Assembly: GCA_015680905.1 (NCBI GenBank)
Contig: CM027382.1
Coordinates: 25,331,501-25,395,500 of the forward strand
Length of the DNA: 64,000 bases
DNA from: Coptis chinensis
Lineage: Eukaryota; Streptophyta; Magnoliopsida; Ranunculales; Ranunculaceae
Reading direction: 5' to 3'
Positions 18,631 to 58,309 of the stretch are shown piece after piece. Position numbers and translations under genes: made by a program. The notes below the pieces were generated by a model. That model had not been told where the DNA came from, ran no database searches, and worked only from the letters and a program-made list of their open reading frames with translations. Numbering within the stretch: position 1 is the stretch's first letter; each line of letters opens with the position of its first letter.

Positions 18631-19608
18631 TTGTTTTTCATGGTAAAGTTTTTTTTGGAGTTCATAGAACGGGCAAGTTTATCCTAATAGCAACAATCGT
18701 TGAACTAAATTTAAAGTTGAAACTCATTTCTAGCAACTAAATAGAAGGTGTCACAGGATAGATGATGGATCTTAAACTAGTGGTGTAGTGCATATTTGTT
18801 TGTTGATTGGATGCCCTCTTCTCGTCGAGGCCTATAACAATGGCAACCGAGTACACGTACAAGTTGTGGGTTCTTGTCAGTACATAGTCACTACACCTTT
18901 GGGGTATTAGTGTAAACAAAATGAGGGTTGTGGCCATCTGAGTTGCTTAGCCCTGCTAGACTAAAGTGGCTTCATGGCAAGAGAGAAGAGGAAGTTGAAA
19001 ATCTTCTTAGATTCATTTATAGCTATTGTATGAGTCCTGAACTTAACAAAACCACTGGTGGTGGAATAGTGAATGTAACTGTTGCGACTAAATGCAGAAG
19101 CGAATGACAACACAAAATCAACCTTATACTAAGACAAATGTTCCAACAATAACCCAGTAACAGTATCAACTAACAAAACATAAAACAAGTAAAGAGAAAG
19201 TAAATAACACACACCACAACGACACAATGACACAAGGATTTAAGGTGGTTCGGCCTTGATACCTAATTACCTATGTCCACATATGGTGAGATCAATGGTT
19301 CCACTAGTTGAAGAAGAATGTTACAAAAGGAGTTGATTTGACTGTACACAACAATCAACTCTCAACCACTCACAAAGAATAAATCACTCACAAAAAAGAA
19401 TGAAATATACCCAAATAGATTGGGTAATTAACGAACTAACCCCTAAATTTCAATTGAGGCACCGATTTTTTTTTCCGTCAATTAGGGTAACCAACTTATA
19501 GGATTGGTCAATAATGGTAATCCATTAACCCGCCATACCAAATTCTTTGTATCTATTATTAATCCAAAAAAAAAAAAATAATAAAATATATATATATATA
19601 TATATATC
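18631..19608. other. Non-coding spacer ending in A-run and (TA)n
   Basis: No gene recognised. Around 19170-19330 lies a stretch with ACACAAGGATTTAAGGTGGTTC, a phrase common in plant dispersed repeats. An A-run (19566-19578) and a (TA)n tract (19586-19607) form the insertion site of the next element. Confidence 0.4.
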
Positions 19609-20152
19609 GGTTTGTCTAGAGTGCCACTCTAATATTGCCACTCTTATCTCACACTTCTCCTCAGCCGTCCGATCCCACCTCAAGATCTGACGATCTAATT
19701 CACTCAAAAATAGCGAAATTTCAAAATTTCAAAATATTTCGGAAACCAAAAAACGAAAAAATGCGAAATGTTTGATCATCTCTCACGGTCGTCTTCTTCT
19801 CCACTCCAGAAATTTTCGAATCTAGAAAAACTCTTTTACCAAACAATTAATCAATTTTTCGATCAACAAGAACATTATTGAGTCTCGAGAAAGTTTCTCA
19901 ATTTTCGATCTAAGCTTCTTATAACTAGATCTCTTCGATGGTTTGGCATACAAGAGAAGCTCACCAGGCTCAAAGTCCAATCTCAAGATGTAAGCAATTA
20001 AAACCTCAAATCTATTTTATAATATTTATTCATCCTTTTTTTATTTTTTATAATGTTTTACGGTTTAGGATAACATCCGTAAGTTTTGCTAAGAAGAGTT
20101 TACCACCATCTCAAATCGGTGTGTTTCTTCGTGATTATCACGGTATCGCTCA
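19609..20152 (+). repeat. Left TIR of Pack-MULE
   Basis: Nearly identical to the reverse complement of 24257-24783. It includes the outer MULE sequence and the first part of an RPS13 gene copy. Confidence 0.9.
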
Positions 20153-20325
20153 GGTCAAAAGTGTTACTCGTGCTAAAGATCTTGCATATTCTCAAGGCTC
20201 ACGGTACTAATCCATTTTGTTTTCTATTTATTTATTCACTTGTTTTTGTATTTTAGTTTTAAAAATGGTTGCTTTATATTGTGGGGTTGTAGGGCTTGCA
20301 CCTGAAATTCTTGAAGAATTGGAAG
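19940..20325 (+). pseudogene. RPS13: Captured ribosomal protein S13 (uS15) gene fragment
   Basis: Three exon pieces with introns kept. Exon piece one (19940-19990) reads AYKRSSP then, after a frame change, LKVQSQDV, like the RPS13 segment YKRTPPSWLKISSQDV. After an intron with acceptor TTTAG at 20068, piece two (20069-20205) reads [26 protein letters not shown] and, in the other frame, LKAHG. After another intron with acceptor TTGTAG (end 20291), piece three reads GLAPEI and then loses similarity. An extra T near 20085 shifts the frame. The source protein is part of the 40S subunit. The first part lies inside the left TIR and is duplicated, inverted, in the right TIR. Confidence 0.88.
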
Positions 20326-20900
20326 CCTAGGCTAATTTCAAGACTTTGGGAAGTAGCCGGCACGCGATATGAGGATGATAAGTTAGTGAAGCAATGCGCT
20401 TCTTCTACTCTGCTTTCTGATGGAGATAGTGCAACAATGCCACTTGAATATTGGACTTGTCGAACAAGTGGAGGTATTACTAGTGCATAGTGAAAGATTC
20501 TACTCTAGACTCACTCTGTTTGAAGGCTTTGTTTCGTGTATTTTTAGTGCTTCTTGGAATTCTTAACTCATTTTGTTTTGTTGTTCAATGTTATGGATCC
20601 GGACAAGCGCCTATTGCTTGGATGAATTTTTTCAAGAAGGTGAGTCTTGCATCCTATTTTCATTCATTCTATTTTAATTCTTTTCTCTTGTGTAATCATT
20701 CATTTTAGGCTATATTTCGTACTAAGGATGGGGAGACGTGTGGACGGATAATTATTGGTAACTTGCTAAAACTTTGAAGTATCTATTTCTTATGGCTCAC
20801 ATCTTGATGTGGATAAGGCTGTTAGTCATACTTGGTACAATTTCTTCATTCATGATATAAGTGTTTAAACCTTTCCAGTGCACATCAGACCTATATACGA
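20326..20900 (+). pseudogene. Captured fragment of an unidentified host gene
   Basis: A plus-strand reading frame joins directly to the end of the RPS13 piece: NWKPRLISRLWEVAGTRYED, DDKLVKQCASS, GDSATMPLEYWTCRTSGG (20296-20490), then GQAPIAWMNFFKK ending near 20639 with an intron-like GT, then after TTTAG near 20708 AIFRTKDGETCGRIIIGN and, further on, VSHTWYNFFIHDI. The pieces look like consecutive exons of one conserved plant gene. I do not recognise the protein. Confidence 0.55.
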
Positions 20901-21300
20901 CCAATCCTGTAGGCTCTAGCCTAAGCATTCCAGGAACCTTGGGATTCAATTCAGACCAGTTTGCTCATACTTACCATTCTACATCATTAATGATTGTAAT
21001 ATTCTTTTTGTAGAGTAGTTGCTATTATGAATCTTAAACAAGTAAACCAGGTATAGGCCGTTGTGTGAATAAGCGATCAAATTGACATTCAAGTGCAAAC
21101 ACAAACTATTAAGTGAGAGTAGACCAAATCGTCAGTAGAAAGTGACCGACATTGTGTTTCTTTGAAGTTGCTTGTATTTACAAATAGTCATCTTATACTG
21201 CCTTAATAGTTTTTAGTAATCCCACTCTTCTGGATTTCAATTATTTTCGTGATGCTTATTGTTATCTCTGTTCATATGATTGATATCCTCGTTTAAAGAC
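20901..21300. other. Pack-MULE internal sequence, no gene recognised
   Basis: Only short frames and no known domain. Confidence 0.3.
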
Positions 21301-21305
21301 GGCGA

Positions 21306-21640
21306 CAATTTCGGTGAACTCTGTCAGAGTTCGGTGAACTAGCATATTCTAGTGAACTCTGTCAGAGTTTTAAATTCTGTCAGAGTTCGGTGAAGTAACA
21401 TATTCGGTGAACTCTGTCTGAGTTTTGAACTCTATCAAAGTTTTGAACTAACATATTTGGTGAACTCTATCAGAGTTTTGAATTCTATCAGAGTTTGGTG
21501 AAGTAGCATATTCGGTGAACTCTGTCCGAGTTTTGAACTAGCATATTCGGTGAACTCGCCGAGTTGGTGAAAGTAGCATATTCGTGAACTCGCCGGAGTT
21601 TTAACTAGCATATTCGGTGAACTCGGCCGAATTCTGTTTT
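21306..21640. repeat. Minisatellite of short palindromic units
   Basis: Irregular tandem copies built from CGGTGAACTCTGTCAGAGTT and GAACTAGCATATTCGGTGAA. The core AACTCTGTCAGAGTT is itself an inverted repeat. Later copies change to GAACTCGCCGGAGTT. It lies inside the Pack-MULE; function unknown. Confidence 0.75.
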
Positions 21641-22930
21641 GCTTCCACATTCATTTAGAAATTAGTGTGCTTGTTGTGCGCTTAATGGTGTGTTTCAACT
21701 TTTTCTCAAGGACATCAACTCATCTCACCAAGGCCGAATGAATTGACGCGTCTTTTATTTGTGGTTGTGGCATCCTTTACCGTGTTTCTTTTCCGATGTT
21801 TGTGATGTGGGTTTCAATTTGTTTTGAACCCATTTATGTCTGATTTTCTGAGAGACAAGTTTGCGGACATCAAGAACCGCTCTCTTAGAAGCGGATATAA
21901 CCAATGAATTTACACTTGGTGTGGCTGGTGAACCCTTCTCATTTCCCCTGTCATAACAACAAGGTGATGGCAGAGTCTTCCGGATTGACAGTGAAATAAA
22001 TATCTCGGCTTGAGCAATTCATCAGGGAATATGTGAGGCATTGAAATGGTTTTAGGTTGTTTATTGGTGAGACTTCATTTGATTGTTGAAGGTGTTTGAT
22101 AGTTTTGTAACATACACTGAGCAATCAAATTATTGGAATCCATTCCAAGGGGAAAATAAGTTTTGGAGTTTATACAATATACAGTGGATGCGTAATCTTA
22201 GTTTACGTTTATAGGTGGAAGTAATTTATGTTCCATTAAAACTGGACATGATTTTAGTCAATGAACTTTTATTTTTTTCTGCGTGAAATGTTGGTTGATG
22301 TTCACATTAGACGTTCACTTTTACAACTTGGGGCCATATAAATTATGATGCTTATTTTCTTGTTTAATTTATCAAAGGTTCAAAGCGGGTTATCGGTTCA
22401 CATTTGTGATGTCAAGAATTCAGGTTTTGAAAATTCGAATGATTTTAGTTCTAAACTTCTGTAATTATAGTTTTGAAAATTCTTTTGTGTAATTTATCAC
22501 ATGGTAAGACCTTTCAGATTGAATGTGAAATGGAACTTCGATCAAGTATGATAATATATCACTTCTAAGAAGCAAACCACCATTTTGGAAGAAGACATTG
22601 GCGGACACTTGGTATTTTAGTTCTCGGCCATTGCAGTTCTCGAACGCTGCTGCGTTTTGTTTTATTTGCTCATTCACTACCGCAAAATTACCCATTTCAA
22701 TACAGGCAAAACATCGTTCAATAGAACTTTGCAAGTGGCAAATCTTGTCAGTAGAAAGAAGATAAATAATGAAACAGGAAACTCTATCAAAGATTTAGTA
22801 CTAAATTCATACGCATATGTTGTACATAGACTTATGTTACATATATTATGCAACTAGCGTATTTTGAGGACATAAGAAACAATTACACAAGGCCATAAAA
22901 GCAATAGAGCATCTTTCACTAACACTCAAA
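21641..22930. other. Pack-MULE internal sequence without recognised gene
   Basis: A minus-strand frame at 22465-22734 (89 codons) has no known motif. No other coding signal is convincing. Confidence 0.3.
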
Positions 22931-22939
22931 AAACATAGA

Positions 22940-23462
22940 TCTTTACAACCTGCTTTATCTTGGCTTGGCAAATTTGGGCACCCCACTTTTACCTTGGATC
23001 TCAATCAGGCATGACATGCATCCAGACAAATGACCACAAGGGATGCAAGCCCCCTCTATTGGAGCATCCAAACATATCACACATGTTGAAGGTATGCTCT
23101 GCTGAGTTTCACTGTTACTAGGCCCACCTTCAGGCACATCCCATCCATTGTACCCAACTTGGGATGGCTTGTACGACCACCTGTTGCTACTACTTCCTGC
23201 TACTACTCCTTAGAGGAGATGCAGGTCCTCTCGTAGGGCCCCGATTGTTGGAGCTATTTTCTGACGAGTTGATCCAATAAACTGGTTTGTTGTCTAGAAT
23301 GCTCTTGTGTGCATTGGGATGCAGTGGTCGCTCGTCCATGGAGGAGGAATGGATATAGGTAGCGATTGCCATGGATAATTCTAAATCTTCGTTTGTCGTC
23401 AGTGATGCAGTTGCCGGAATAAGTGGTGCCGTTAAGGAGGGATTCATCACCTGCAGGGTAGA
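22940..23462 (-). pseudogene. Captured XBAT34/35-type RING E3 ligase C-terminus
   Basis: On the minus strand the segment starts after CAG with NPSLTAPLIPATASL and NEDLELSMAIATYI, continues in another frame through YNGWDVPEGGPSNS, and ends with the RING finger CVICLDAPIEGACIPCGHLSGC then MSCLIEIQ and, after a one-base shift, CQAKIKQVVKIY. In the family these RING E3 ligases have N-terminal ankyrin repeats and this C-terminal RING, which binds E2 enzymes. Here the second zinc-site pair (CPxCR) is lost (ICQ with an Ala before it) and two frameshifts are present, with no ankyrin repeats, so it is a broken fragment. The exact family member is not certain. Confidence 0.8.
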
Positions 23463-23467
23463 ACGTC

Positions 23468-23625
23468 AGATAGCCCATACTCTCCAACAAGCTTCAGTTC
23501 TGCATCCAAACGCTCCTTCTCATATGGACGACGAGGCTTCTTAAAGGTCTTCCCATTCAAAAAGAGCCTGTAGAAGTGTTGCGACTTTCTTTCTGTATGT
23601 ATCTTCCATTTGCGCCATTCTAAAC
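23468..23625 (-). pseudogene. RPS9: Captured ribosomal protein S9 (uS4) N-terminal fragment
   Basis: The minus-strand frame reads [19 protein letters not shown] then [17 protein letters not shown], matching the highly conserved N-terminus of plant 40S ribosomal protein S9. It begins near 23600 and loses similarity at the GL. The RING-gene fragment follows directly on the same strand, joined at a CAG/GTG boundary, so the two captured pieces form one artificial chimeric reading direction. No start codon of the source gene is evident in frame. Confidence 0.85.
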
Positions 23626-23629
23626 AAGA

Positions 23630-24125
23630 AAATTTTCTTTAAATAATCCTATCACTACTTTCGAAATTGCTGGCATCAAACACTTGGAAGTTGGAACTAA
23701 CTAATGTTGTAGTAAGTGTGTTTTAGTACCTTTGTGTGTCGGCAAAGTAAACAAGTTATCGCTGAACAAGCTCATAAAACCTATAGCTTAAATCAGTCAT
23801 TAATAATGTTTAGCTCAAAGAAACAAACATTATTAAATGAACTAAAAAATACTGCAAACTTGCTAAATAATCATATGGGCATCTCTAAAAAACTTAAACA
23901 AATAAATGGGTATCATTATAACGATCAAAACAATCAAAACAGTAAGTTTCATAATCTACTATACAAACTAAATTCACAAGCACTAATAACCACACGCTAA
24001 CAATATGCGAAGACAAGAAACAATTAAACGGTATCTCGGACTTGCTTTGCTTCTATTAACCACAATTTGTTTTTCAACATGTCAATTCATACATATTTTT
24101 ATTTCTAATAGGCATACAATAATTC
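23630..24125. other. Pack-MULE internal sequence without recognised gene
   Basis: AT-rich, with a plus-strand frame of 94 codons (23716-24000) that is Lys/Asn/Gln-rich and probably chance. Confidence 0.3.
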
Positions 24126-24130
24126 TCTAA

Positions 24131-24230
24131 CCATTTTAACTTTACGGTTCCTTTTCCAATTTGTTTCTCGATGAACTCCTTGGTGTGCTTGATCACTTTA
24201 TCAGTTTTGTTGCACAAGATGAGCCTTTGG
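24131..24230 (-). pseudogene. Captured SRP receptor beta subunit fragment
   Basis: The minus strand reads LILCNKTDKVIKHTKEFIEK then QIGKG. This is the NKxD guanine-binding segment (NKTD) and following helix of the signal recognition particle receptor beta GTPase at the ER membrane. Only about 30 codons are present. It directly adjoins the inner edge of the right TIR. Confidence 0.7.
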
Positions 24231-24256
24231 AATCTTTACGCGATATGACGAATCTT

Positions 24257-24783
24257 TGAGCGATACCGTGATAATCACGAAGAAACACACCGATTTGAGA
24301 TGGTGGTAAACTCTTCTTAGCAAAACTTACAGATGTTATCCTAAACCAGAAAACATTATAAAAAAATAAAAAAGGATGAATAAATATTATAAAATAGATT
24401 TGAGGTTTTAATTGCTTACATCTTGAGATTGGACTTTGAGCCTGGTGAGCTTCTCTTGTATGCCAAACCATCGAAGAGATCTAGTTATAAGAAGCTTAGA
24501 TCGAAAATTGAGAAAGGAATAATGTTCTTGTTGATCGAAAATTGATTAATTGTTTGGTAAACATTTTTCTAGATTCGAAAATTTCGGGTGGAGAAGAAGA
24601 CGACCGTGAGAGATGATCAAACATTTCGCATTTTTTCGTTTTTTGGTTTCCGAAATATTTTGAAATTTTGAAATTTCGCGATTTTTGAGTGAATTAGATC
24701 ATCAGATCTTGAGGTGGGATCGGACGGCTGAGGAGAAGTGTGAGATAAGAGTGGCAATATTAGAGTGGCACTCTAGACAAACC
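24257..24783 (-). repeat. Right TIR of Pack-MULE, including RPS13 fragment
   Basis: Inverted copy of 19609-20152. It carries RPS13 exon pieces one and two up to DYHGIAQ (minus strand, about 24257-24470) with the intron between them. Beyond the inner edge the sequence does not continue as RPS13, unlike the left side. Confidence 0.9.
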
Positions 24784-24814
<31 letters not shown>

Positions 24815-24825
24815 TATATATATAT
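24784..24825. repeat. (TA)n microsatellite
   Basis: Near-pure TA tract flanking the Pack-MULE; its counterpart at 19586-19607 flanks the left end. Confidence 0.9.
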
Positions 24826-26278: not shown

Positions 26279-27165
26279 TAGGGGTGTAATACGGGGCGGG
26301 CGAGTCAACTGCAGTCAACTAGTGATGGGGCGGGTCGGGGCGGGTCTAGGGGATACAAATCCAGTGGTCCCCGATGGGGCGGGTTGAAATGTCATGTCTT
26401 AGTACCATCATCCGGCCTGTTGGGTCAGCTAACGGGGCGGGTTTTGGGCGGGTCATCCGGGTCGGGTGGAAATTATCGTTTTAACCCAATTTCACCCAAA
26501 AAAAACTTTCTAATTCTGCAAGTAATATATTTCCAATTCACAACATAGAAAAAAATGGAATCAATCAATAAAAAATAAAAAAAAAAACTTGAATTTGAAC
26601 CCAAAACCATATCTGTAAATTTGAAACTTTTTTCTCGTGATTTACTATTTGTAAATTGATTATTTTCCATAGCATGATAAAATGAAGATGGGAACGAGGA
26701 TCTATGGTACAAAACAATAAAATATAAAATAAAAGAATTCGAAATTAATATAAGGATGAATGATTCATCTTTTCCAAAATTCGAAAGGTGAATTTGAACT
26801 TTTGATATTTGCCCAATGTTTAAATTTGAATACGTGAAATTGATGTTGAAATTATAAGTTTGTATTTATATCTCTCAAATTCCTACAAAAGTTAAAAGAA
26901 AATATAAACAAAATACAAAAATATTAGAGTTAGAGTCTTGAAATTGTGCGGGTCAATGAGGTTGGGTCAATGACTTTTTGACACGTGCGGTGGTCGGGCG
27001 GCTTGACGCGGTCGGTTTGAGCATAGAACCTACACCCATAGCCCGACCCGCATAAAAATTAGCAGGGTGGGTGGGTTTGTTTTCGGGTCGGTGCGGGTTT
27101 GGGTGGCGAGTGAAGATCGGGTACCCTACCGGATGATGGGTCAACGGGTTTTTTTTACACTCCTA
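26279..27165. mobile_element. hAT-like non-autonomous element, GC-skewed ends
   Basis: Inverted ends TAGGGGTGTAA and TTACACTCCTA with flanking 8-bp CCAGTTAC (26271-26278) and CTAGTTAC (27166-27173), one mismatch, the duplication size of hAT elements. Subterminal zones are rich in GGGCGGGT on the left and matching GGGTCGG/CGGGT blocks on the right, and the middle is AT-rich and non-coding. 887 bp. Confidence 0.75.
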
Positions 27166-27345
27166 CTAGTTACTGAGGCCATATAACGTGTCATACGAGG
27201 CCACCTAATTGCTTCTAGTATAAGAAAATGTGTGTATGTTAGATTACAATAGAAAATATCGGCAAGGTAAATGAGACAGTAAAAGCAAAAAAAACATTTG
27301 CATTATTTCTAGCCAGAAATTAAATAAGAATATATATATATATAG
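27166..27345. other. Spacer with (TA)n at right end
   Basis: No gene. A (TA)n tract at about 27331-27344 forms the left insertion site of the large MULE. Confidence 0.5.
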
Positions 27346-27960
27346 GGGCTGGCTACCTTGACAGCTCCAATTGACAGCTTATCTTGACAGCTCGTCACGT
27401 CCGTTTGATCACAACCCATCCAACGTCCAAGAACTATTCCTTATCAAACAAAGAATTTAGGGTGGGTATAATGGTCATCTTGATTTTCTATTCATAAAAA
27501 AAACAAAAAACCCAACAAAACACTCTGAGACTTCTTCTTCCTCTCTCTTCCTCACTCACTCTCTACAGATAAACCCATGCCGGTTTCTTCTTCACAAAAG
27601 ATCACCCGACTATTCAATTGGAGCCCATTATCTTTCTTTTTCACAAAAAATCACTATACTATTTTTTTGGAATTAGCCATCTCTGTAAACCAAGGTAAGT
27701 TAATCTTATTTTATCGTTCTTTTGGTTTTTCCAATTTGTAAGAAGTTAATATTCTTTGCTTTGATATTGTCCTTTTGAACTTAAGTGCTTTCTTTTCGAA
27801 TTAGAATTCTTAGTTGTTTGTTCTCGAAGAATTGCTCTATAGCCCTCTTTTATACCATAATCGTTTTTTGCTAATTAGAATAGACGCGTTAAAATTGTCA
27901 ATTTAATATATGGGAGTCATTAATATCTATTTTGCGTCATTTGATATTTTCTCTGTTTCT
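27346..27960 (+). other. MULE left TIR and 5' leader of transposase gene
   Basis: Terminal repeat followed by pyrimidine-rich leader. A donor-like AAGGTAAGTT at about 27692 and an acceptor-like TTTTTGCTAG ending at 27970, just before the ATG 27973, suggest a leader intron. Confidence 0.5.
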
Positions 27961-27972
27961 TTTTGCTAGAAA

Positions 27973-30240
27973 TGGAAGAAAATGTTAGAGCTTTGTTGGC
28001 ACTTCTTCTTGTTGTACTGATTCTCAAAGTAATGACGTTAATAAATTAGTTGCTCCACACTTAGGTATGAAATTTAATAGTGTTGATGAAGCAAAGACTT
28101 ACTACAGAGAGTTTGGTAAACAGGAGGGATTTGAGATTCGTGTTCGGACTATGGATAAAAAACAAACGGGTGTGGAATTGCCTTCTAATTGTCTATTGGT
28201 TTGCTCACGCGAGGGGGTCCATAACAAGAAAGAAGAAATTGAAGGTGTAGCTTCGAGAAGTACTTCGACTATTAGATGTGGTTGCCAAGCTAGAATGCGA
28301 GTTACAAAAAGAAAACTTGAAGATATATATGATGTGAGTTTGGCTGAAAATCGCCATAGCCAATCACTCCATCAAAGAGACAATATATGAAAGGTAACAA
28401 AAATATAGATTGCAAAGAGTTTGACAGAGGTTTTTCATGACAACGGTATACCTGTAGGGAAAGTGGCAGACGTTTTCCATGGGGATGAGATTGGGTTTCG
28501 GAGAAAGCATTGTTGGAACCACCATTATGGTTTGACGAGAAAAATGCCTAAAGATAATGATGCAACAGCCGTGCTTCACTATTTTAGGCAGAAGAGTGCT
28601 GAAAATCCTCAGTTCTACTATGCCGTTCAATTAGATACAAAAGGTGTAGTAGTAAATTTCTTTTGGGTTGATGGAAGGTCCCGTGTCCAATATGAGTACT
28701 TTGGGGATGTCGTATCTTTTGATACAACATATAGAACTAATGTTTACGGTATGCCATTTGCCCCTTTTATCGAGTCAACCACCACATAATCCATTCGGTT
28801 TGGTTGTGCCCTACTACTTGATGAGACGGCGGAAGAGACATTTGTGTGGTTGTTTTAGGACATGGCTTGCAGCTATGGGTGGTCGATCCACCAACTTCAA
28901 TACTTTATCGACCAAGATTTAGCGATGATCGCAGCAGTTAGAAAAGTTTTCCCTACTATTCGACATCGATTTTGTCTTTGGCACATTATGCAGAAATTTT
29001 CGAGAGAAGTTGTCATTTGTTTACCATAGGCTCGATGCTTTGTGTTTGAGCTTACATATATTATTTGGAAGTCATATAGGATTGTTGATTTTGAAAGCAG
29101 GTGGTCTGCGCTCATTGTTGAAGTATAACTTGACTGAAAATACTTGGTTGATGAAATATATAAAACCCGTGACGTCTTGGGTTCCGCTTATCACAATGAC
29201 ATTTTTTTTGGTATGCATAATGACGGGCTGAAGTGAATCAATGAATTCTCATTATGATCAATTCGTTAGTTCGACGACTACACTTATAGAATTTGTCCAT
29301 GGTAATGAGAGGTCTTTGGAATCGATAGCCGGAATGAAAGGAATCGATTACCATACGAACATACTTCTCGTGATTGTGGCTAAGGATGCTTTCCTCCTCA
29401 AGCATGCAGGTAAAGTTTATACCATTAGTGCTTTCAATAAATTCAAGAAACATTTAGAAAAGGCTAAGATGAAGTATAGAATTGTGGGAGAAGAGATAGA
29501 CATACATGGAACAGGAATTTATACGGTGAAGACAAGAGACATTAAGCAAACTTCAATTTGGAAAGTGACTTTTAATAGAGGAACTTTGGAGGGTATTTGT
29601 GAATGTAAGAATTTTCAGTTCGAAGAATTACTTTGTGCTCACATTTTAAAGCTTTTTCAGCGTTATGACATCGAAGAGATTCCAGATCATTTTATTTTGA
29701 AACGGTGGACGCAAAAGGCAAACACATACAGAGCGGTGTTTGATGGTGGACTAGTGGCCGGTCATGAAGACCATGAGCCATTAAGAGTTGCCCATTGTAT
29801 CAAGGTTGCTACTCAATTGGCTTATGATGCATCAACTAGTGTTGAGACATATGCATATTTTATTCAGAAGATGAGTGAAATGTCTATTGGAGTTTCGGAG
29901 CTTAAGGAAACTATCAACAAAACGGATGCAATGAATAATGAAGCACCTCCAGTTGAAGAGCCTATAGTTGATACCTCAAGGTAATTTATTTAGTTTGTTT
30001 TTTTATCTTTGCAATGATAAAAATCTTATTTGATTTTAACTCTTAAATCTTCTTTTCAGCTCTTGGTTTTAAATCCCAACATTTCTCAAACGAAGGGAGG
30101 AAGAAGAAAACGGAGAGAATGAAAGGCCCTGTGGAGGAAGCCTTAGAGAATCCGGGGAAGAATGTGTAAATCTTGTAATAAGATTGCTAAGCACGCGACT
30201 CAGAAATTGTCCAGAAAAATTAAAAAACAAGAGTGTGGAA
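27973..30240 (+). pseudogene. MULE transposase, FAR1/FHY3-like, frameshifted
   Basis: ATG at 27973, then a shift near codon 9. Pieces in order: FAR1 DNA-binding domain (28067-28390: DEAKTYYREFGKQEGFEIRV, CGCQARMRV), MULE transposase core (28421-28920: DATAVLHYFRQKSAENPQFY, FGDVVSFDTTYRTNVYGMPF with a catalytic Asp, then in another frame LLDETAEETFVWLF, TWLAAMGGR and further on IRHRFCLWHIMQKF), a poorly kept stretch to 29240, then KHLEKAKMKYRIVG and the SWIM zinc finger CECKNFQFEELLCAHILKLF (29241-29984). The end reads KGPVEEALENPGKKCKSCNK (30120-30180), the C-terminal knuckle of FRS proteins. Such proteins cut and paste MULEs; host FHY3/FAR1 factors derive from them. At least four frameshifts or stops make this copy inactive. 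Confidence 0.85.
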
Positions 30241-30300
30241 TGACATGCTTGTTGAGTGTGGAAGGACCGTTGGTTATGTTCTTACTGCCTTGTTTTTTTG

Positions 30301-30503
30301 GGTGTTTTTTTTCTAATTGTAAGAATTATAAAAATATCCAATTTTTTGGGAGCTTACACCAATGATTTCGGTTTTTTTTATGTCGGATAATTGATACTAG
30401 AAAAATGGCATGAGGCAGCTGATCCTAGGTTGTAGAAATCATTGGTGTAAGCTCCCAAAAAATTGGATAGTTTTATAATTCTTACAATTAGAAAAAAAAC
30501 ACC
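30301..30503. repeat. Long hairpin, about 68-bp arms
   Basis: The left arm 30301-30368 (GGTGTTTTTTTTCTAATTG to ACACCAATGATTT) and the right arm 30436-30503 are reverse complements with very few differences, separated by about 67 bp. It lies just after the transposase end. Confidence 0.85.
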
Positions 30504-30540
30504 AATGATTTCTAATTAGCAATTCAAACAATTCAAAAAA

Positions 30541-31045
30541 TTGACATCATTCGTGTTCGTGGTGGCACTTCGTTCCAATTTTTTGAATTGTTTGAATTTT
30601 AAATTGACTATCCAGTTTTTTGGGAGCTTACAGTGTGGAAGGACCGTCATTTTAAACATGCCTCCACGAACACGAGGAGGATTAAGCACCCAAACCCGAA
30701 AAAGAAAATGTAACGAAGTGCCACCAATTCCCATTGTTTATGAACCCAATGAAGAAATCATAAAATCAACAATGAACACTTAATGTTCATATTCTTGTTG
30801 GACTATGAACATTCAGTGTTCATACTCTAGTGGACTATGAACATTGAATGTTCATACTTTGTTAGACTATGAACATTCAATGTTCATAGTTGATGCAATG
30901 AGTTTTGCCAATGATGTCAATGAAGTTGGCATATGATGTGTATGTCAATGAAGTTGACATACGCCCTGGAAAAGCGGGTAACAAAGTCAGGAAAAGACAT
31001 GGACGTGCCCATATTTGATTGGAAATGTCAAAATAAGCATAACTC
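30541..31045 (+). repeat. Segment repeated in inverted orientation at 33215-33770
   Basis: It contains GACATCATTCGTGTTCG, a short frame beginning MPPRTRGGL (30658-30783), three palindromes, and GTCAATGAAGTTGGCATATG. The inverted copy runs about 33215-33770, and a partial copy in the same orientation as that one lies at 32225-32610. The 42-codon frame MPPRTRGGLSTQTRKRKC recurs, altered, in the inverted copy; I do not recognise it. Confidence 0.8.
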
Positions 31046-31370
31046 CAAGGTAAATTAAACCCATCTCCAAATTGAAGAATTATACACAAATCAATACCCA
31101 ACTATGAAATTTTATGCAGAGATGGCTTTTGTTAGGAGGGAAGAAGAATGGGGTCGTGGATTTTTGTGGATCTATTTTTTTTTGTGAATAGAAAGTCAAA
31201 TGACCATTGTACCCTCTCTTATTTGGGGTATGAACAATCATTGTTCATAACCCCAATATGAGCTATGAACACTCATTGTTCATATGAACATTCATTGTTC
31301 ATACATATTTGGGGTATGAACAATCAATGTTCATACCTCACTATATAAGCCGCGGTACAACACTATATAA
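31039..31370. repeat. Inverted-repeat arm (left) related to MULE termini
   Basis: Reverse complement of 35748-36082. It starts at AACTCCAAGGTAAATTAAACCC, includes TCAAATGACCATTGTACCCTC (also seen near the outer MULE ends) and ends near ACTATATAAGCCGCGGTACAA. Confidence 0.8.
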
Positions 31371-32200
31371 TAGAGAAAGTTTATATCGACAATGTATAAG
31401 CTGTGCACGAAAGTGGAAGACTGCCAAAATGGTTAGATCTAATCTCGACCACCCGATCTAAAATAAATGAGATGATCTAATCTCAACCGTTTACCAAAAC
31501 AAAAATAAAGATGATATTATTATCGGAAAAATCACTCCTCTCAATCGCAAAACAAGGGGGTATCTCAAATTAACCATTCTTTGTTCATACCACAGTCATG
31601 AGCTATGAACATTTTTGTTCATATCACAATTGAACTATGAGCAGTGAGTGTTCATAGTCCATATTGTAATGCGATTATAAACAATCAATGTTCATAGTCA
31701 TAAGCTATGAATATTCTTTGTGCATACCGCAATTGGACTATGAACAATGATTGTTCATAGTATGCATAATATGGACTATGAACACTCATTGTTCATAGCT
31801 ATGTTCATAGTTCATAGCTATGGACAATGAGTGTTCATAGCTATCGAACTATGAACAATCACTGTTCATAGTCCAATTGTGATATGAACAAAGAATGTTT
31901 ATAGCCCATACTATGATTAACTCTTAATATCACTGTTCATAGTCCAATTGTGGTAACTCTTAATATGATTAACTCAAAACCAAAACTGAAAACTTTAATA
32001 CAAACTACCAGCCTTTATATAGGGCTTAAATAATTCTAATTTCCACAAAACTCAAAAATTTTCCAAAATGGAAAGTTTTGGGATAACCATATATTAAGAA
32101 ACTACTAATCAAAATAGAATTAACCCAATTGACCAAATTGAAAACGGAATCTCCTATCAAAAGATATAACAAAAACAAAACTTTCCTAAAACGGCAAAAA
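31371..32200. other. MULE interior, palindromes and AT-rich sequence
   Basis: Apart from the palindromes at 31580-31950 no gene is recognised. Confidence 0.4.
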
Positions 32201-32224
32201 CATGATTTTGAAGGCCTAAATGAT

Positions 32225-32610
32225 GGTGCCCACAACAAAGCTGTGGGTTATGCTTATTTTGACATTTCCAATCAAATATGGGCACGTCCATGTCTTTCCG
32301 ACTTTGTTACCCGCTTTTCCAGTTCATTGACGTATGTCAACTTCATTGACATACACATCATATGCCAACTTCATTTACATCATTGGCAAACTATATTGCA
32401 TCAACTATGAACACTGAATGTTCATAGTCTAACAAGAGTATGAACATTCAATGTTCATAGTCCACTGGGAGTATGAACACTGAATGTTCATAGTCCAACA
32501 AGAGTATGAACATTAAGTGTTCATTGTTGATTTTGCGATTTCTTCATTGGGTTCATAAACAATGGGAATTGGTGGCACTTCGTTACATTTTCTTTTCGGT
32601 TTGGGTGCTT
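32225..32610 (-). repeat. Partial copy of the 30541-31045 segment (inverted)
   Basis: It shares CCCACAACAAAGCTGTGGG and ATGGGCACGTCCATGTCTTTCC with 33210-33300 and, in reverse, with 30960-31030. Confidence 0.75.
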
Positions 32611-33214
32611 AATCCTCCCTCGTATGCGATATGGTCTTTTGTTTCGTCGAACTTGCAAGTCCCTGTAAGTGAGTCCTCTCTCATTTGTCACTTTGTTTAG
32701 TCGACATTTTTGTATCTTTGATACATTTAATAAAATTCTCCAAAAAAAAAAAAAAAGATAAGACCTAGGAAATAATCTACCCATTATAGCAATAATTAAA
32801 TAAGAAAACGATGAACGTTGTATCTCTAAGAACAACATAAACTTTCAAGGGAATATTAAATGAAGCACTTTTAGTGTCTGGGATATAGGTGCATGCTGAC
32901 AATATTGCACCAACTCATTTTTTGAATGATATGAACAAAGAATGTTTATAGCTCATGACTATGAACAATCATTGTTCATAGTCCAATTGTGATATGAACA
33001 AAGAATGTTCATTGCTCATGACTATGAACATAAATTGTTCATTGCTCATGACTATAAACATTGATTGTTCATAGTCTATACTGTACTATGAACAATCAAT
33101 GTTCATAGTCATGAGCTATGAACATTCTTTGTTTTTGAAGAATGATGGATTTTTGAAGGCCTAAATGATTTTGAAGGCCTAAATGATGGATTTAGGGACC
33201 GAGAGGGTGGTGCC

Positions 33215-33770
33215 CACAACAAAGCTGTGGGTTATGCTTATTTTGACATTTCCAATCAAATATGGGCACGTCCATGTCTTTCCGACTTTGTTACCCGCTT
33301 TTCCAGTTCATTGACGTATGTCAACTTCATTGACATACACATCATATGCCAACTTCATTGACATCATTGGCAAACTGTATTGCATCAACTATGAACACTG
33401 AATGTTCATAGTCTAACAAGAGTATGAACATTCAATGTTCATAGTCCACTGAGAGTATGAACACTGAATGTTCATAGTCCAACAAGAGTATGAACATTAA
33501 GTGTTCATTGTTGATTTTGGCGATTTCTTCATTGGGTTCATAAACAATGGAATTGGTGGCACCGTTACATTTTTCTTTTTCGGGTTTGGGTGCTTAATCC
33601 TCCTGCGTGTTCGTGGAGGCATGTTTAAAAATGACGGTCCTTCCACCTCGTAAGCTCCCAAAAACTGGATAGTCAATTTAAAATTCAAACAATTCAAAAA
33701 TTGGAACGAAGTGCCACCACGAACACCTAATGATGTCAATTTTTTGAATTGTTTGAATTTTTGAATTGTT
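33215..33770 (-). repeat. Inverted copy of the 30541-31045 segment
   Basis: Runs from GTGCCCACAACAAAGCTG through four palindromes to CAATTTTTTGAATTGTTTG, reverse complement of 30541-31045 with scattered changes. It carries the MPPRTRR-like frame on the minus strand. Confidence 0.8.
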
Positions 33771-34301
33771 TGAAACCACCATTATGGTCTTTGTTTCAAG
33801 GAAGGTCGGGTGATTGATTATCATCACACGTTGTTAGTGATATATTTTTTTTTTGTTAAATCATGAAGCGATTTTTTTTTTTTCTCAAGAAATCAAAGGA
33901 GCCTTTAGAGTGAGGGTGAAAAGAGTTTTTGATTTTTGGCGAGCACGAACGTAATGAAATGATAAGGGGCCTACATGACGTCATCTTTTAAATGCCTATC
34001 ATCTGGAAATTTTGTACCGTTAGATTAAGATAATCCAAGAGTCCAAAAATTGAGTTAAACTTGAGTCAAATAAAATTGAGTCCCAGGAACCGGACCCTTG
34101 TTTTTATCACAATTGGACTATGAACAGTGATTGTTCATAGTCATGAGCAATGAACAATTTATGTTCATAGTCATGAGCAATGAACATTCTTTGTTCATAT
34201 CACAATTGGACTATGAACAATGATTGTTCATAGTCATGAGCTATAAACATTCTTTGTTCATATCATTCAAAAAATGAGTTGGTGCAATATTGTCAAAGAT
34301 G

Positions 34302-34460
34302 CACCTATATCCGCATTAACACTATAAAGAGGGCCTATTTAGGTTTAGGGGTGTGCCTATATCCCGCATTACACTATAAGAGGGTCCTATTTGGGTTTAG
34401 GGGCGTGAGCCTATATCCCAAGCACTATAAGAGGGCGGGTGCCTATTTGGGTTTTACTTT
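34302..34460. repeat. Short tandem repeat, three units of about 55-60 bp
   Basis: Units contain CCTATATCC, ACACTATAAGAGGG and CCTATTTGGGTTTAGGGG. Confidence 0.75.
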
Positions 34461-34579
34461 TCAGTTGTTATTTTCGGTGAGTAGATTGTGGGCTTTGTGA
34501 CTATGAACAATTGGACTATGAACATTGATTGTTCATAGTCATGAGCTATGAACATTCTTTGTTCATAGTCCACAAAGAA

Positions 34580-35740
34580 TCCATTTTACAGTATCCAATT
34601 GGCATTCAAATACAACAATAATGAATGAACCCATATAAACAATAGCATAGCATTGAATTATTTTTTACATTGCGATAACAAAGCTTTAAGTTTACAAAGC
34701 TTTCAATGTATACACTAACACACCTCGATCAAATACTTGAAGCTACACAAAACGGGTAACAAAATACAAACCAAGAAATGGCTAGATTTTCTTAATCAAA
34801 CATTGCTTTTTCTTAATTCCCATAAAAAAAGTTATTTAAGCTCGGCTCAAATTGCAACATGAAACAAGCTTGAGGGAGCTAGAAATGAGTAGAACCTCGA
34901 AAGTAGCTCGAAATTCACTAATACTTTGTCGGAAGTCAAATTTCAAAGCATGTTAGGACTCGGCCCATATTACAGCACAAATTAACTTGCTCGAGCCAAG
35001 AATGAGCGGCCCATCATCTGAATTGTGACATTTTATAGACAACTAAAGCTCAACCCGGTGGATCGGAATATATATTGTTTTGTTTTCCAAATTAGCATAC
35101 GATGTGCCAAAGATGTTTTTCTGTTAAAGTTTGGTGGTTAATACAGGTTTCAATTTCGTCTACTTCCTTGGATTTATGATTTCATCCCCGAGCACACGCA
35201 AACATTCTCACAAGCACGTCATAAACACCTCCCAATCGTAAATTGTATTTATGGGGGTATGTGTGTGTGTAATGTGAATTAGAAGAATGCTAATTTATTT
35301 CCACTCTCTTACTATTGTTGGGTTTGATCATGGTGGTGTAACACTTCAAATTTCCTCCAATGATATAATTTGTAGATTTAAGTCTACAAATATCGTGATT
35401 TGATTGCTCGAGAAAATTTTCTCATGAAAACAGACATTTTCCTCGACGGAAAGTAGTCAAAGTACTCCCCATATAATTTCTTTTGGCAAAATTTGTTATA
35501 TGAAAAATCAATATTTTCCCTATCAAAAATTTTCTACAAGAAAAAAACGGAATGCTTTTTCAAATCAAATAACTCATCGGGTTCAATTGTTCAAAAATCC
35601 CAATTGACCACTCCACTAATCTTAATCAATTTTAACAACATTATGATTGACTTTGATTGACTTTGTTGACTTCAACTGATTGAACACGGTTTTTGACTCG
35701 ATCGAAAAGGTAAATTCAATGGGGGCTCATCGGTGATAAA
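34580..35740. other. MULE interior without recognised gene
   Basis: No domain and no tandem structure seen; AT-rich. Confidence 0.35.
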
Positions 35741-35747
35741 CTTTCGG

Positions 35748-36082
35748 TTATATAGTGTTGTATTACCGCGGCTTATATAGTGAAAGGTATAAACATTGAT
35801 TGTTCATACCCCAAATAGGTATGAACAATGAATGTTCATATGAACTTATTCGTTCATAGCTCATATTGGGGTATGAACAATGTTCATACCCCAAATAAGA
35901 GAGGGTACAATGGTCATTTGACTTTCTATTCACAAAAAAAAATAGATCCACAAAAAAACCACGACCTCATTCTTCTTCCTCCTAACAAAAGTCATCTCTG
36001 GACAAAACTTCATAGTTGGGTATTGATTTGTGTATAATTCTTCAATTTGGAGATGAGTTTAATTTACCTTGGAGTTATCCTC
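35748..36082. repeat. Inverted-repeat arm (right) related to MULE termini
   Basis: Reverse complement of 31039-31370 with three palindromes inside. Confidence 0.8.
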
Positions 36083-36676
36083 ATAAATATGAAGTGGGTT
36101 ATCCGGTTATCTGTTGAAGTGAATTCTTTGACTTCCATTGAATCATTGATAAAGAAATACCTTATATTGTTATGACACATTTTTTTATGTAAACCATTGG
36201 AAGGAATTAAAGATATGGTTGAGTTGAGAATCTTGGTGAGTTTTTGTATCTGTTTGATTCTATTGTTGAGCAGGAGGTAATCAATTTTCAAATGAGTTCT
36301 TCAAACTTGATTGAGTTGGGTTTTAATTATATTTTCCTTTTGATTCTTAAGATTTGATTGTGGGTTAACCGGTTCCATTGAGTTTCCAAGCAGAGTTTTC
36401 ATGAAAAAACGTGGTGGTGGGTGTCCCTATAGTGAGGAGAGAGAAAGAGGATGAGGAAGAAGAAAGAGGATGAGGAAGAAGAAAGAGGCGTCAGTTTTTA
36501 CCTAATTTTCTAATCTAATTTGTGAAAGAAAAATAAAATGACTATTGTACCCTCTCATATTTGCTTTGTGAAATTAACGCAAAGATCCGGACGTTGGATC
36601 GGGTATAATCGAATGGACGGATGAGAAATTACATTAAGATGAAATTTGTCATTTTAAGTACATCAAGGTAGCCAAC

Positions 36677-36678
<2 letters not shown>
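36083..36678. other. MULE right terminal region
   Basis: Contains a direct repeat of GAGGATGAGGAAGAAGAAA (about 36446-36485), then the block resembling the left TIR (ACCCTCTCATATTTG, CGGACGTTGGATC) and the end GGTAGCCAACCC. Confidence 0.55.
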
Positions 36679-36762
<84 letters not shown>

Positions 36763-36800
36763 TTTTTTATTTATTTATTTATTTATTTTTTTTTTTTATA
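36679..36800. repeat. (TA)n microsatellite followed by (ATTT)n and T-run
   Basis: About 80 bp of pure TA, then TTTATTTATTTATT and a T-run to 36798. Confidence 0.95.
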
Positions 36801-37020
36801 AGTAAATTTTATTCAATTGGTTACACAATGTGGTACAAGTGTTAGAGAAGTTCACTTACAACTTACAAGATGCAACCAGTGCACAAGCGGACTAGATACC
36901 TCCTAAGACCTCTTAGCACTAGTTCCAATACCGTAAAGCTCTTCTAAAAGAAAAATTACGTCCCAAACGACGACCTGTAGGCCCCAAGATTTCATCCTAT
37001 CACTAGCAACAATGTTATTG
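36788..37020 (-). mobile_element. Possible 3' tail of a retroposon
   Basis: On the minus strand a non-coding stretch ends ...TTGAATAAAATTTACTTATAAAAAAAAAA, i.e. an AATAAA signal and an A-run. This fits the 3' end of a LINE- or SINE-type insert in minus orientation. No coding part is recognised and no duplication was identified. Confidence 0.35.
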
Positions 37021-46675: not shown

Positions 46676-47600
46676 AATTCGACTCTCGATACCACTCTTT
46701 GAAAAGAAAATTCGACTTTCGATACCCCTCCAATTAAAAGTAGTATCAATTGATACTTAGTAATATTTTGACATGAAAATTCAACTTTCGATACCTGCCA
46801 CTCCAATTAAAGTAGTATCAATTGATACTTAGTAACATTTTGAAATGAAAATTTGACTTTCGATATCACTCCAATTAAAAGCAGTATCAATTGATACTTA
46901 GTAATATTTTGAAATGAAAATTTGACTTTCGATATCACTCCAATTAAAAGCAGTATCAATTGATACTTAGTAACATTTTGAAATGAAAATTCAACTTTTG
47001 ATACCCCTCCAATTAAAAGCAGTGTCAATTGGTACTTAGTAATAGTTTGAAAAGCAAATTCGACTTTCGATACTACTCCAATTGAAAGCAGTATCAATTG
47101 ATATTTAGTAATATTTTGACATGAAAATTCAATTTTCGATACCACTCCAATTAAAGCAGTATCAATTGATACTTAGTAACATTTTGAAATGAAAATTCGA
47201 CTTTCGATACCACTCCAATTAAAAGCAGTATCAATTGATATTTAGTAACATTTTGAAATAAAAATTCGACTTTTGATACAACTCCAATTAAAAGCAGTAT
47301 CAATTGATACTTAATAACATTTTGAAATGAAAATTTGACTTTCGATACCACTCCAATTAAAACCAGTATCAATTAGTACTTAATAATAGTTTGAAAAGCA
47401 AATTCGACTTTCGATACTACTCCAATTAAAAGCAGTATCAATTGATATTTAGTAATATTTTGAAATGAAAATTTGACTTTTGATACCACTCCAATTAAAA
47501 GCAGTATCAATTGGTACTTAGTAATAGTTTGAAAAGAAAATTCAACTTTCGATACTACTCCAATTAAAAGCAGTATCAATTGATACTTAGTTTCGAGATC
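46676..47600. repeat. 69-bp tandem repeat array, about 13 units
   Basis: The unit contains GTATCAATTGATAC (a perfect 14-bp palindrome), ACTTAGTAA, TTTTGAAATGAAAATTCGA and TTTCGATACCACTCCAATT. Period 69 bp, measured between repeated GTATCAATTGATAC sites. Because 69 is divisible by 3 and stops are avoided in one minus frame, the array reads as a periodic 23-residue peptide (LILLLIGVVSKVEFSFQN); I take this as chance. Confidence 0.95.
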
Positions 47601-56527: not shown

Positions 56528-57295
56528 TACCGCTCTTCTTTGTCATGCGAACAAAGTTCACATGGCAAAGAAGAGAAGAAAAAGCAAGAAAAAAAAGGAA
56601 TAAGAAAAAAGTGAGCGTAGTGTATAACGAAGTATCATGCGAAAGGAAATGATAGAAAAATGGAATGTCGAGAAAAATGCCTGAAATATTGTGTGTTAAA
56701 TAATTTTAAACTAATTTATATGAGGCTGCAATGTAATTAATTGATAGAGGGGGAAGCAAGAAGTAAAATAGGTGACAAAAAATCGATAAAGAAAACCAAT
56801 TTTTAACCCGGATTGGCAGATCTAGTATAATAGAAGTATGGAAAAAAATAGATTCCTTTCAAGAAAGTGGTTGGGCTGTAGTGGCACACCCACTAGTTGG
56901 TGAGAGGGGTGAACAATGTTCGAGTCTCCACATGGACAAATTAATTATTGAATGTCAAGGGGTGAACAATGTTCGAGTCTCCACATGGACAAATTAATTT
57001 TTAAATGTCAAAGATTCCCAAACCTGGGCTATTAAGCCGGTCCAGTATATTGAAAATATCCGGGTTGGATAAGGTAGGAAGAATTTAAATATACTAAGTC
57101 GGTAGTTGAGGCAAGAAGGAGATAATGCAACGAATTTAAATCCGGATTAGGAAGTGATAAGCGAATTTAAATCCGGATTAGGAAGTGATAAGCTCCGTAA
57201 CTTGGAACAGTGGACGAACACAACAAAAACATAACTCGCGAAGGAAAAAAAATAATAATAATAATAATGAAGATTAGGAAGTGATAAGCTCCGTA
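56528..57295. other. Spacer of nested Tat-like element
   Basis: No gene. A direct repeat of GGGGTGAACAATGTTCGAGTC (about 56909 and 56959) and one of GAATTTAAATCCGGATTAGGAAGTG (57132, 57162) are seen. Confidence 0.6.
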
Positions 57296-57960
57296 ACGTG
57301 GAACAGTGGACGAACATAACTCGCGAAGGAAAAAAAATAATGAAGCTGATGAAAATTTTCGTTCGGAAAAATTCTCGTAGAAAGATTGGCAGAATACCTT
57401 AGAAAAAATAATGACGCTAACGAAAATTTTTGCTCTGAGAATTTTTCATAGAAAGATCGGCACAATGCCTTAGAAAAAATAATGAAGCTAACGAAAATTT
57501 TCGCTCGGAAATTTTTTCGTAGAAAGATCGGCACAATGCTTTAGAAAAAATAACGACGTTGACGAAAATTTTCGTCGAAATTTTTTTCGTAGAAAGATCG
57601 GCACAATGCCTTAGAAAAAATAATGAAATTTTGAAAATTTTCGGCGGAAAATTTTTTCATAGAAAGATCGGCACAATGCTTTAGAAAAAATAACGACGTT
57701 GACGAAAATTTTCGTCGAAAAATTTTTCGTAGAAAGATCGGCACAATGCCATAGAAAAAAAATGACGCTGACGAAAATTTTCGCTCGGAAAATTTTTCGG
57801 AGAAAGATCGGCACAATGCCATAGAAAAAATAATGACGCTGACGAAAATTTTCACTCGGAAAATTTTTCGGAGAAAGATCGGCACAATGCCATAGAAAAA
57901 ATAATGACGCTGACGAAAATTGTCGCTCGGAAAATTTTTCGTAGAAAGATCGGTACAATG
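57296..57960. repeat. 70-71-bp tandem array, about 9-10 units
   Basis: Units contain AGAAAGATCGGCACAATGCC, AATAATGACGCTGACG and AAAATTTTCGCTCGGAAAAT. Starts of GAAAGATCGG at 57451, 57522, 57592, 57662, 57732, 57802, 57873 and 57944. The minus-strand frames through it are periodic and not real genes. Confidence 0.95.
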
Positions 57961-58309
57961 TTTAAAAAAATCGGAAGATAGTTAACCGAAAGCGCTAGCG
58001 AAACAAATGCAGATTTCGAAAAAGAAAACGAAGATTTAATAGAACGACCATAAGACAATTGACAAAGACAATTGATTAGGTAATTGTGTGAATGTAATAC
58101 CATAGAGCTAAACCTTCTTTTGATGAAAAATAAAAATAAAGATGGGTTTGCTATTGAATATTGTTGTTGTGTCAAATAACATACCTGTGGAAAACTGACA
58201 ATGTTGTAGATTTATGTAATTGAAATGAAATAGAACAAGACGCCCCCATGTAGAGAAAAACACCCCCAATGCATACTTAACTTTGCAAAATTAGGCTAAG
58301 CGAGCATAA

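Follow-up and report, generated by a model that had tools for sequence, protein, structure and literature searches.

The 64,000-nucleotide stretch of the Coptis chinensis genome considered here (contig CM027382.1, positions 25,331,501 to 25,395,500; hereafter the window) contains a Mutator-like element (MULE) whose 3' half is filled with clusters of a short palindromic motif. The element encodes a MULE transposase with FAR1 and SWIM domains and is inserted in a TA microsatellite. Its terminal inverted repeats (TIRs) match in 127 of 179 alignment columns (71%, with some of the TA flank counted in), and the 9-bp target site duplication is hidden under the (TA)n flanks. The window copy is a relic because its transposase gene is broken by stops and a frame change. 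An earlier model-made reading of the letters (the preliminary description) was correct in naming a FAR1-type MULE as the host, and the palindromes begin about 0.8 kb past the last transposase frame (which ends at 29984). The features are collected in Table 1.

Table 1. Features of the MULE and its palindrome arrays (window coordinates)
Feature	Position	Strand	Remarks
Whole MULE, 9.3 kb	27345..36678	+	Ends GGGGCTGGCTACC... and ...GGTAGCCAACCC; sits in (TA)n microsatellite
5' TIR	27345..27498	+	End-to-end comparison
FAR1 DNA-binding domain of transposase	27989..28390	+	Pfam PF03101, E=7.8e-13
MULE transposase domain fragment	28859..29029	+	Pfam PF10551, E=5.3e-9
Transposase C-terminal part with SWIM finger	29232..29984	+	Pfam PF04434, E=3.2e-5
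Dyad array A	30771..30888	none	4 units
Inverted copy of H end (array B, TATA and block)	31033..31384	-	91% to 35736-36084
Dyad array B	31229..31335	none	4 units; inverted copy of array H
TATA-box-like TATATAAG	31342..31349	+	6 bp past array B
Dyad array X	31568..31941	none	12 units, three with 3 arm mismatches; itself a large inverted repeat
Dyad array C	32406..32525	none	4 units; duplicate of A
Dyad array D	32930..33137	none	7 units; itself a large inverted repeat
Dyad array E	33390..33509	none	4 units; duplicate of A
Dyad array F	34119..34262	none	5 units; duplicate of part of D
Dyad array G	34517..34567	none	2 units
TATA-box-like site	35772..35779	-	8 bp from array H, directed into element
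Dyad array H	35788..35888	none	4 units; canonical 3'-end array by alignment of 30 copies
TIR-like block adjoining array H	35890..36084	+	Genome query: 40 scored places at 93-100%, window included, from 116 candidates
3' TIR	36519..36678	-	End-to-end comparison

The palindromic unit, or dyad, is the 21-bp sequence TATGAACA-n5-TGTTCATA, and 46 units, some of them decayed, form nine clusters at 30771-35888. The exact motif occurs 23 times within 30701-36000 and in none of 300 simulated sequences (first-order Markov, matched in base make-up), so that the array is far beyond chance at the place where it had been described; with at most one arm mismatch there are 38 units in this interval and 0 in the remaining window. 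The preliminary description had reported about 40 copies starting at 30781 and a four-base spacer. The dense clustering stands and the number and start need adjusting, while the n4 spacer is rejected as nearly all units have n5: the n4 pattern fits four places when up to three mismatches are allowed and only one, at 31604, exactly, and the unit at 35872 has a spacer of n1. Steps between units within a cluster are mostly 30-34 bp and the linkers measure 19 bp at most, which places the units close to three helical turns apart, a suggestive spacing in units that are not independent of each other. A test for a common origin of six linker types, from which three linkers shorter than 9 bases were excluded and for which the orientation had been chosen beforehand, gave p values from 0.0015 to 0.93 and is not relied on.

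The window arrays have been multiplied further through inverted duplications. Comparison of the window with itself shows that the plus-strand segment around array A (30521-31043) has an inverted copy at 33231-33759 (94%) and a partial one at 32247-32623 (93%), the copied segments reaching back to 33208 and 32224, and that 32881-33076 recurs inverted at 34116-34312 (96%). Arrays A, C and E hence belong to one segment, B and H to another, and D and F share a third; since A recurs as C and E, B as H and part of D as F, the 46 units do not amount to 46 independent events. The duplicated and inverted surroundings that had been noted are therefore real, at 91-96% identity. The suspicion that all copies might stem from a few duplications applies to part of the clusters but not to the motif as such, which is found genome-wide in other elements. 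Arrays B and H were also considered as the plain ends of a nested transposon, which was rejected as homology continues outward to the MULE end in other copies. At 31033-31043 the A segment meets the inverted B end at a common ATAAC, a junction with microhomology of the kind seen in template switching. Next to array F lies a tandem repeat of 52 bp with CACTATAAGAGGG units (34304-34454), and a 200-bp foldback with GTAAGCTCCCAAAAAATTGGAT arms (30301-30503) follows directly after the transposase.

One option raised in the preliminary description was a self-spreading palindrome, in which the 21-bp unit is itself a mobile mini-insert. The presence of the same dyad in differing surroundings is what such an insert would produce, but where the window's three duplicate sets can be aligned they show no clean gain or loss of any single dyad, the units lie in arrays with steady steps, and their carriers are recognisable elements with ends of their own, all of which makes this origin very improbable.

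Scanning the genome (935.6 Mb, 116 contigs) returned 19,586 exact dyads and 0 matches to a reversed-pattern control; as a further control, bacterial and archaeal genomes held the pattern in 82 stretches and viral contigs in 8, with one site per stretch. The search beyond the MULE that had been proposed thus found the motif in abundance, and its placement inside one MULE was too narrow, since further transposase subfamilies and a second type of element carry it too. The central bases, described as varying, do differ by 46.6% between window arrays, but they are not free: 16,424 of the exact sites (84%) have the centre NTNAN.

The TIR-like block beside array H provides a view of the element that does not depend on the dyads, as 30 of its 40 scored places, the window being one, were returned for the block alone and picked regardless of dyads. 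At least two dyads lie beside the block in all 30 loci, more follow further in for 25, and six or more are present in 18, with unit numbers gained and lost between the copies. Outward from the block, homology extends over ~600 bp to a common terminus in most copies, and by a fixed rule 21 of the 30, window included, have four or more TA units no further than 60 bp from that terminus; for seven of the other nine the rule did not find the terminus. A transposase at least 77% identical lies within 6 kb of 11 of the 39 other scored block places, always upstream and on the same strand. The canonical element appears to consist of a 5' TIR, the FAR1 transposase, dyad arrays, array H, the TIR-like block, about 600 bp and a 3' TIR, its 5' end being taken from the window copy, in which inverted duplications appear to have rearranged this order. 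Dyads are a fixed component of the 3' end of a mobile MULE family. A further locus, L137, is a foldback derivative in (TA)n with two 1.0-kb arms that are 93% alike and both carry dyads.

Three TATA-like sites are found in 30301-36100, two of them next to arrays B and H (Table 1), and in 23 of the 30 copies TTATATA is found no more than 30 bp from the equivalent array. This arrangement is consistent with a dyad to which a host transcription factor binds and which serves as an enhancer for a transposon promoter. Such a role is nevertheless improbable, slightly more so than the silencing role considered below, because no TATA-like site lies near any of the inner arrays (X, C, D, E, F and G). No plant factor is known to us to have this site, with no search of motif databases made.

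A genome-wide search with the transposase gave 150 scored relatives from 2088 candidates, and the window and 12 fetched loci, picked regardless of dyads, were compared; dyads are present in eight of these 13. Four of them (L138, L139, L142 and L147) encode transposases that are 65-69% identical to that of the window and carry 20-22 dyads with the n5 spacer. Unlike in the window family, their modal linker is CCCAAAACAKA with mostly 32-bp steps, and they have no 3' match of 250 bp to L141, a member of the window's family. Eleven loci near the start of contig 1 (L095-L105), chosen for holding dyads and including the near-duplicate pairs L099/L100 and L102/L103, also differ from the window family in their modal linkers. 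They share the element end GAGAGTCACTCCCTG, which is present with at most three mismatches in nine of the eleven and recognised by alignment in L102 and L103, and which has 205 exact occurrences genome-wide. Six copies laid out from five of these loci measure 0.67-1.4 kb, start with CAAGAAATTGG or a close variant of it, show no evident TIRs and in three cases have a perfect 9-bp target duplication by eye; the contig-1 array loci inspected are a different element type from the window MULE. The 16 arm bases are nonetheless identical as a consensus in all four element groups (counted from n5 units with at most two mismatches), and T10 and A12 accompany the same arm bases in the subfamily and the element type whose linkers and flanks differ.

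Two further loci, L144 and L145, encode transposases of about 65% identity and carry dyads with a main linker that the window's family also has, and a 558-bp portion of this subfamily's 3' half is 85% identical to L141. The array region (L141 3124-3649 against L145 1855-2410, on the transposase strand) is thus far more alike than the transposases, and the shared linker and 3' half indicate that array modules have been exchanged between subfamilies. The 3' half of the dyad-positive L144 has a weak match to protein kinases at L144:3557-3919 (E 0.002, under the curated cut-off), which may be a fragment of a captured gene. When presence of dyads is mapped onto a transposase tree of 13 rows, with L136 (only a decayed fragment) and L137 (no match) excluded, it changes 4 times against a shuffled mean of 4.2; there is no extra clustering, and dyad gain and loss therefore look frequent in this small sample. 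Modules can also be absent: L143 and L146 match L138 at 97.5-98% at the DNA level until about 350 bp past the end of the transposase, and beyond that point they have no further 250-bp match to L138 and no dyads. Close transposase relatives can therefore have a different 3' half without dyads. In L143 there are six copies of a GGTGAACTC repeat, in L146 seven of GTCAAAGTCA, and in the likewise dyad-free L140 ten of TTCTGTCAGAG. About half of the six repeats in L143 (2535-2720) hold AACTC-n5-GAGTT, possibly a second, weaker dyad, similarly laid out, in a relative that lacks those with TATGAACA.

A palindrome may be kept for its letters or for the hairpin it can form, and the two leave different traces. 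Of the 320 arm pairs in the window's 40 n5 units, 300 are intact, 20 carry a change in one arm only and none in both arms. In 635 dyads of the fetched loci, a set that excludes the window itself (L106), L136 and L137, complementary changes on both sides were counted 13 times, where independence of the two sides predicts 13.2 (9 vs 6.2, 3 vs 2.6, 0 vs 3.5 and 1 vs 0.9 by group). The test for compensatory changes that had been proposed thus gave no excess over chance, and, as the window duplicates show no clean gain or loss of a dyad either, the suggestion of small hairpin-forming mini-inserts is not borne out. Genome-wide, arm position 4 has 1,473 and 1,479 changes on one side or the other (2,952 in all) and 178 on both, so that 94% of the changed sites are uncompensated. 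Diversity across the 30 copies is 0.026 in arms (columns from units with at most two mismatches), 0.109 in centres, 0.056 in linkers and 0.21 in the inward flank, and 0.029 in the TIR-like block, which was the search query; arms are less diverse than centres and linkers together (p=0.0044), with a borderline difference from linkers alone (p=0.057). Between five window arrays (25 units, leaving out duplicate arrays and units with other spacers) arms differ by 6.3%, centres by the proportion given above and flanks by 54.4%, and of the recent duplicates A and E show protected arms (p=0.039). As arms outconserve centres and linkers and arm changes are hardly compensated, the letters and not the hairpin seem to be kept, and the constraint seems to act on the sequence, as is typical of a dyad to which a dimer would bind. 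According to the preliminary description, a lack of compensatory change would make the motif passive. The lack does argue against a selected hairpin, but passivity does not follow from it, because a subfamily with differing linkers and a differing 3' half retains the same arm bases.

The arrays could in principle give rise to long hairpin RNAs, a source of small RNAs with which the host would silence the family. Arrays X and D fold far better than shuffled sequences (z -21.2 for 31560-31950 and z -14.3 for 32920-33140), TATA-like sites are directed into the element, and CpG observed/expected is 0.12 in the arrays vs 0.74 elsewhere in 30.3-36.1 kb, which could reflect past methylation. A parallel is the maize locus Mu killer, in the passages available an inverted duplication of MULE end sequence proposed to yield hairpin RNA (PMC3440606); that is a silencing locus, whereas the arrays described here are part of the mobile family itself. 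At arm position 4 paired changes are mildly more frequent than expected (178 vs 120), which points in the same direction, but one-side changes are far more numerous there, and arm compensation in the fetched loci is at chance level. Complementarity of centre positions 9 and 13 falls below expectation in two groups (11/109 vs 33.5 and 1/32 vs 11.9), though above it in a third (58/100 vs 38.5), and the 32 Rfam matches at E<=0.1 in 27000-37000 include none at gathering score. Such a decoy is accordingly improbable. A microRNA or other structured RNA was rejected on the same Rfam result, the best matches lying on both strands, and on the lack of arm covariation in the fetched loci.

We put the probability at roughly 0.57 that the dyad is the target of a sequence-specific protein, probably dimeric and probably transposon-encoded, and that arrays of it are kept for this reason in the 3' non-coding half, a prediction made from sequence comparison. 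According to this model the transposons keep many dyads as tandem arrays in the non-coding half beside the 3' end, and the arrays would recruit the protein to the element, where it would either aid assembly of the transposase or strip silencing marks and open an inward promoter, as VANC does on VANDAL. Of the three options in the preliminary description, binding sites multiplied by rearrangement is the best supported, with the sites being putative. The binder would be either the FAR1-type transposase or an accessory protein of the DUF1985/VANC kind acting in trans. We lean slightly towards an accessory or an anti-silencing role because the arrays are one-sided in transposase-bearing copies and present in a second element type. 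Binding by the transposase is the main alternative agent within the same model, and in its simplest form it is disfavoured because the 5' end of the window copy has no dyads; among the copies examined, dyads in both arms occur only in the foldback derivative L137. En/Spm elements carry transposase-binding terminal or subterminal repeats.

For an accessory factor, the position of DUF1985 frames is of interest. DUF1985 has 149 scored places in the genome, and on contig 1 two of the 29 listed array-type ends lie within 6 kb of a DUF1985 frame, at 2.6-2.7 kb and in the same relative orientation, each with dyad variants about 0.2 kb away; on this contig alone 0.09 would be expected by chance (P 0.004). 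The proximity of array-type ends to these VANC-domain frames is suggestive only.

Several observations weigh against a protein target. Five of the 13 transposase loci have no dyads, and L144 and L145 are no independent witnesses because they share linker and 3' half with the window family. No dyad with up to three arm mismatches lies between 27345 and 30770 of the window copy, unlike what is expected of terminal transposase sites. No second gene, and no DUF1985 match, was recognised in eight chosen frames of L141, L144 and L138, nor was DUF1985 matched in three tested frames of the window array region. Of the 81 ends listed for contigs 1-3, two have DUF1985 no more than 6 kb away (none on contigs 2 and 3; 0.20 expected on average by chance, P 0.017). 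At arm position 4 the paired changes exceed the 120 expected of independent sides, a comparison in which relatedness is uncontrolled. The B-H duplicates have no arm protection (p=0.63), and D-F changes fall in 1 of 80 arm vs 5 of 116 other columns. Arm conservation is partly built in, since a match to the arms with at most 2-4 mismatches was the criterion for picking units, even if window linkers of such short length can hardly conceal many decayed ones. Decayed or other-spacer units do exist, as is shown by perfect 8-base half sites that lie outside dyads (42/228, 105/640, 39/156 and 10/40 in four groups).

Some of these observations would equally be produced by a passive minisatellite, in which a dyad-bearing unit of 30-34 bp expanded by slippage and foldback-driven template switching and hitchhikes without function. 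The tandem arrays with their regular steps, the units gained and lost among copies, the large inverted duplications, the unprotected B-H duplicates and the selection of units through arm match all fit this view. It explains less well that the 16 arm bases and T10/A12 persist where linkers and flanks differ, by subfamily and by element type, that NTNAN prevails in the centre of exact sites, and that arm diversity lies below that of centres and linkers. A passive origin is unlikely on balance, yet it has to be taken more seriously than the other alternatives. A protein target for the dyad remains the preferred explanation, and it places the arrays close to systems that have been described elsewhere.

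Arrays of binding sites in MULEs are already known. In the available passages on Arabidopsis VANDAL elements, VANC proteins bind short motifs that are tandemly repeated in the non-coding parts of these MULEs and remove methylation (PMC5735166, PMC10398659); the motifs differ between related VANDALs, the VANC6 motif is also present in the unrelated AT9TSD1, and DUF1985 is a domain of VANC (PMC5735166, passages and a figure legend). The VANC21 motif given there is the 9-base YAGTATTAY. The Coptis elements resemble VANDALs in having tandem arrays of one short motif in a non-coding part and a motif shared across element types. The other 3' repeats of their relatives L143, L146 and L140 may be a counterpart of the differing VANDAL motifs. 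They differ in that the motif is a 21-bp palindrome and the same dyad spans transposase subfamilies, and in that a VANC-like gene was not recognised in the frames tested.

Other MULEs share traits with the family. As far as the excerpts of the respective papers show, Muta1 and its relatives in Aedes (PMC5225508) have MULE ends made of short tandem repeats and many non-autonomous derivatives, but the 12-bp repeats lie inside 145-bp TIRs at both ends, whereas the dyads are about 0.8 kb from the 3' end, and it takes a foldback derivative like L137 for them to occupy both arms. The window's family resembles MuTAnT and AutoMuTAnT of Medicago (PMC4486113) in its Jittery-like transposase, ends starting with GGGG, insertion in TA microsatellites and foldback derivatives; the consulted sections mention no dyad arrays, and the end mask is GGGGTTTGCTAGAACA compared to GGGGCTGGCTACCTTG here. 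MULEs with multiple or tandem TIRs (PMC3310237) have an extra internal TIR-like copy as does the window element, and the sections on them do not describe dyad arrays; MULE TIRs are said there to hold transposase sites, including that of MURA, and promoters. The SIRC loci of Arabidopsis (PMC10342631, in part) consist of short direct repeats with diverse spacers, are often within transposons and are in some cases palindromic; they comprise 2-8 software-defined repeats of 10-29 bp with no single shared motif reported in that part, compared with one motif at about 20,000 sites here. The window also contains a 576-bp inverted pair of 94% identity at 19578-24815, whose outer ends, (C)GGTTTGTC..., abut (TA)n and which looks like another, MuTAnT-like element. 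Its self-comparison further reveals satellite-like tandem arrays at 46698-47591, 57176-57970 and 58296-58943 with periods of about 69, 70 and 87 bp.

The new part is the palindrome, its scale and its sharing across families, none of which was found in a literature search that had most subscription journals outside its scope; a text search of 5.39 million papers for the motif as four literal 21-mers, a 19-mer and in IUPAC form gave no match. A possible extension, tentative and rather unlikely, is that a single dimeric protein encoded by transposons, perhaps a DUF1985/VANC-like one, serves several distinct families in trans via its ~20,000 sites, and that the families compete by acquiring, losing and swapping whole 3' array modules. 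If true, the families would share a network for anti-silencing or transposition whose target is a palindrome. In the passages cited above, the VANDALs of Arabidopsis are the documented case of transposons that counter silencing in a sequence-specific manner. A palindrome common to MULE subfamilies and a second element type at this scale, together with close relatives free of dyads, amounts to a natural experiment. The system offers a defined site, matched elements with and without dyads, and the FAR1-type transposases and 149 DUF1985 places as candidate binders, and it would thus make testable whether one trans-acting protein is shared among transposon families and how its targets are exchanged.

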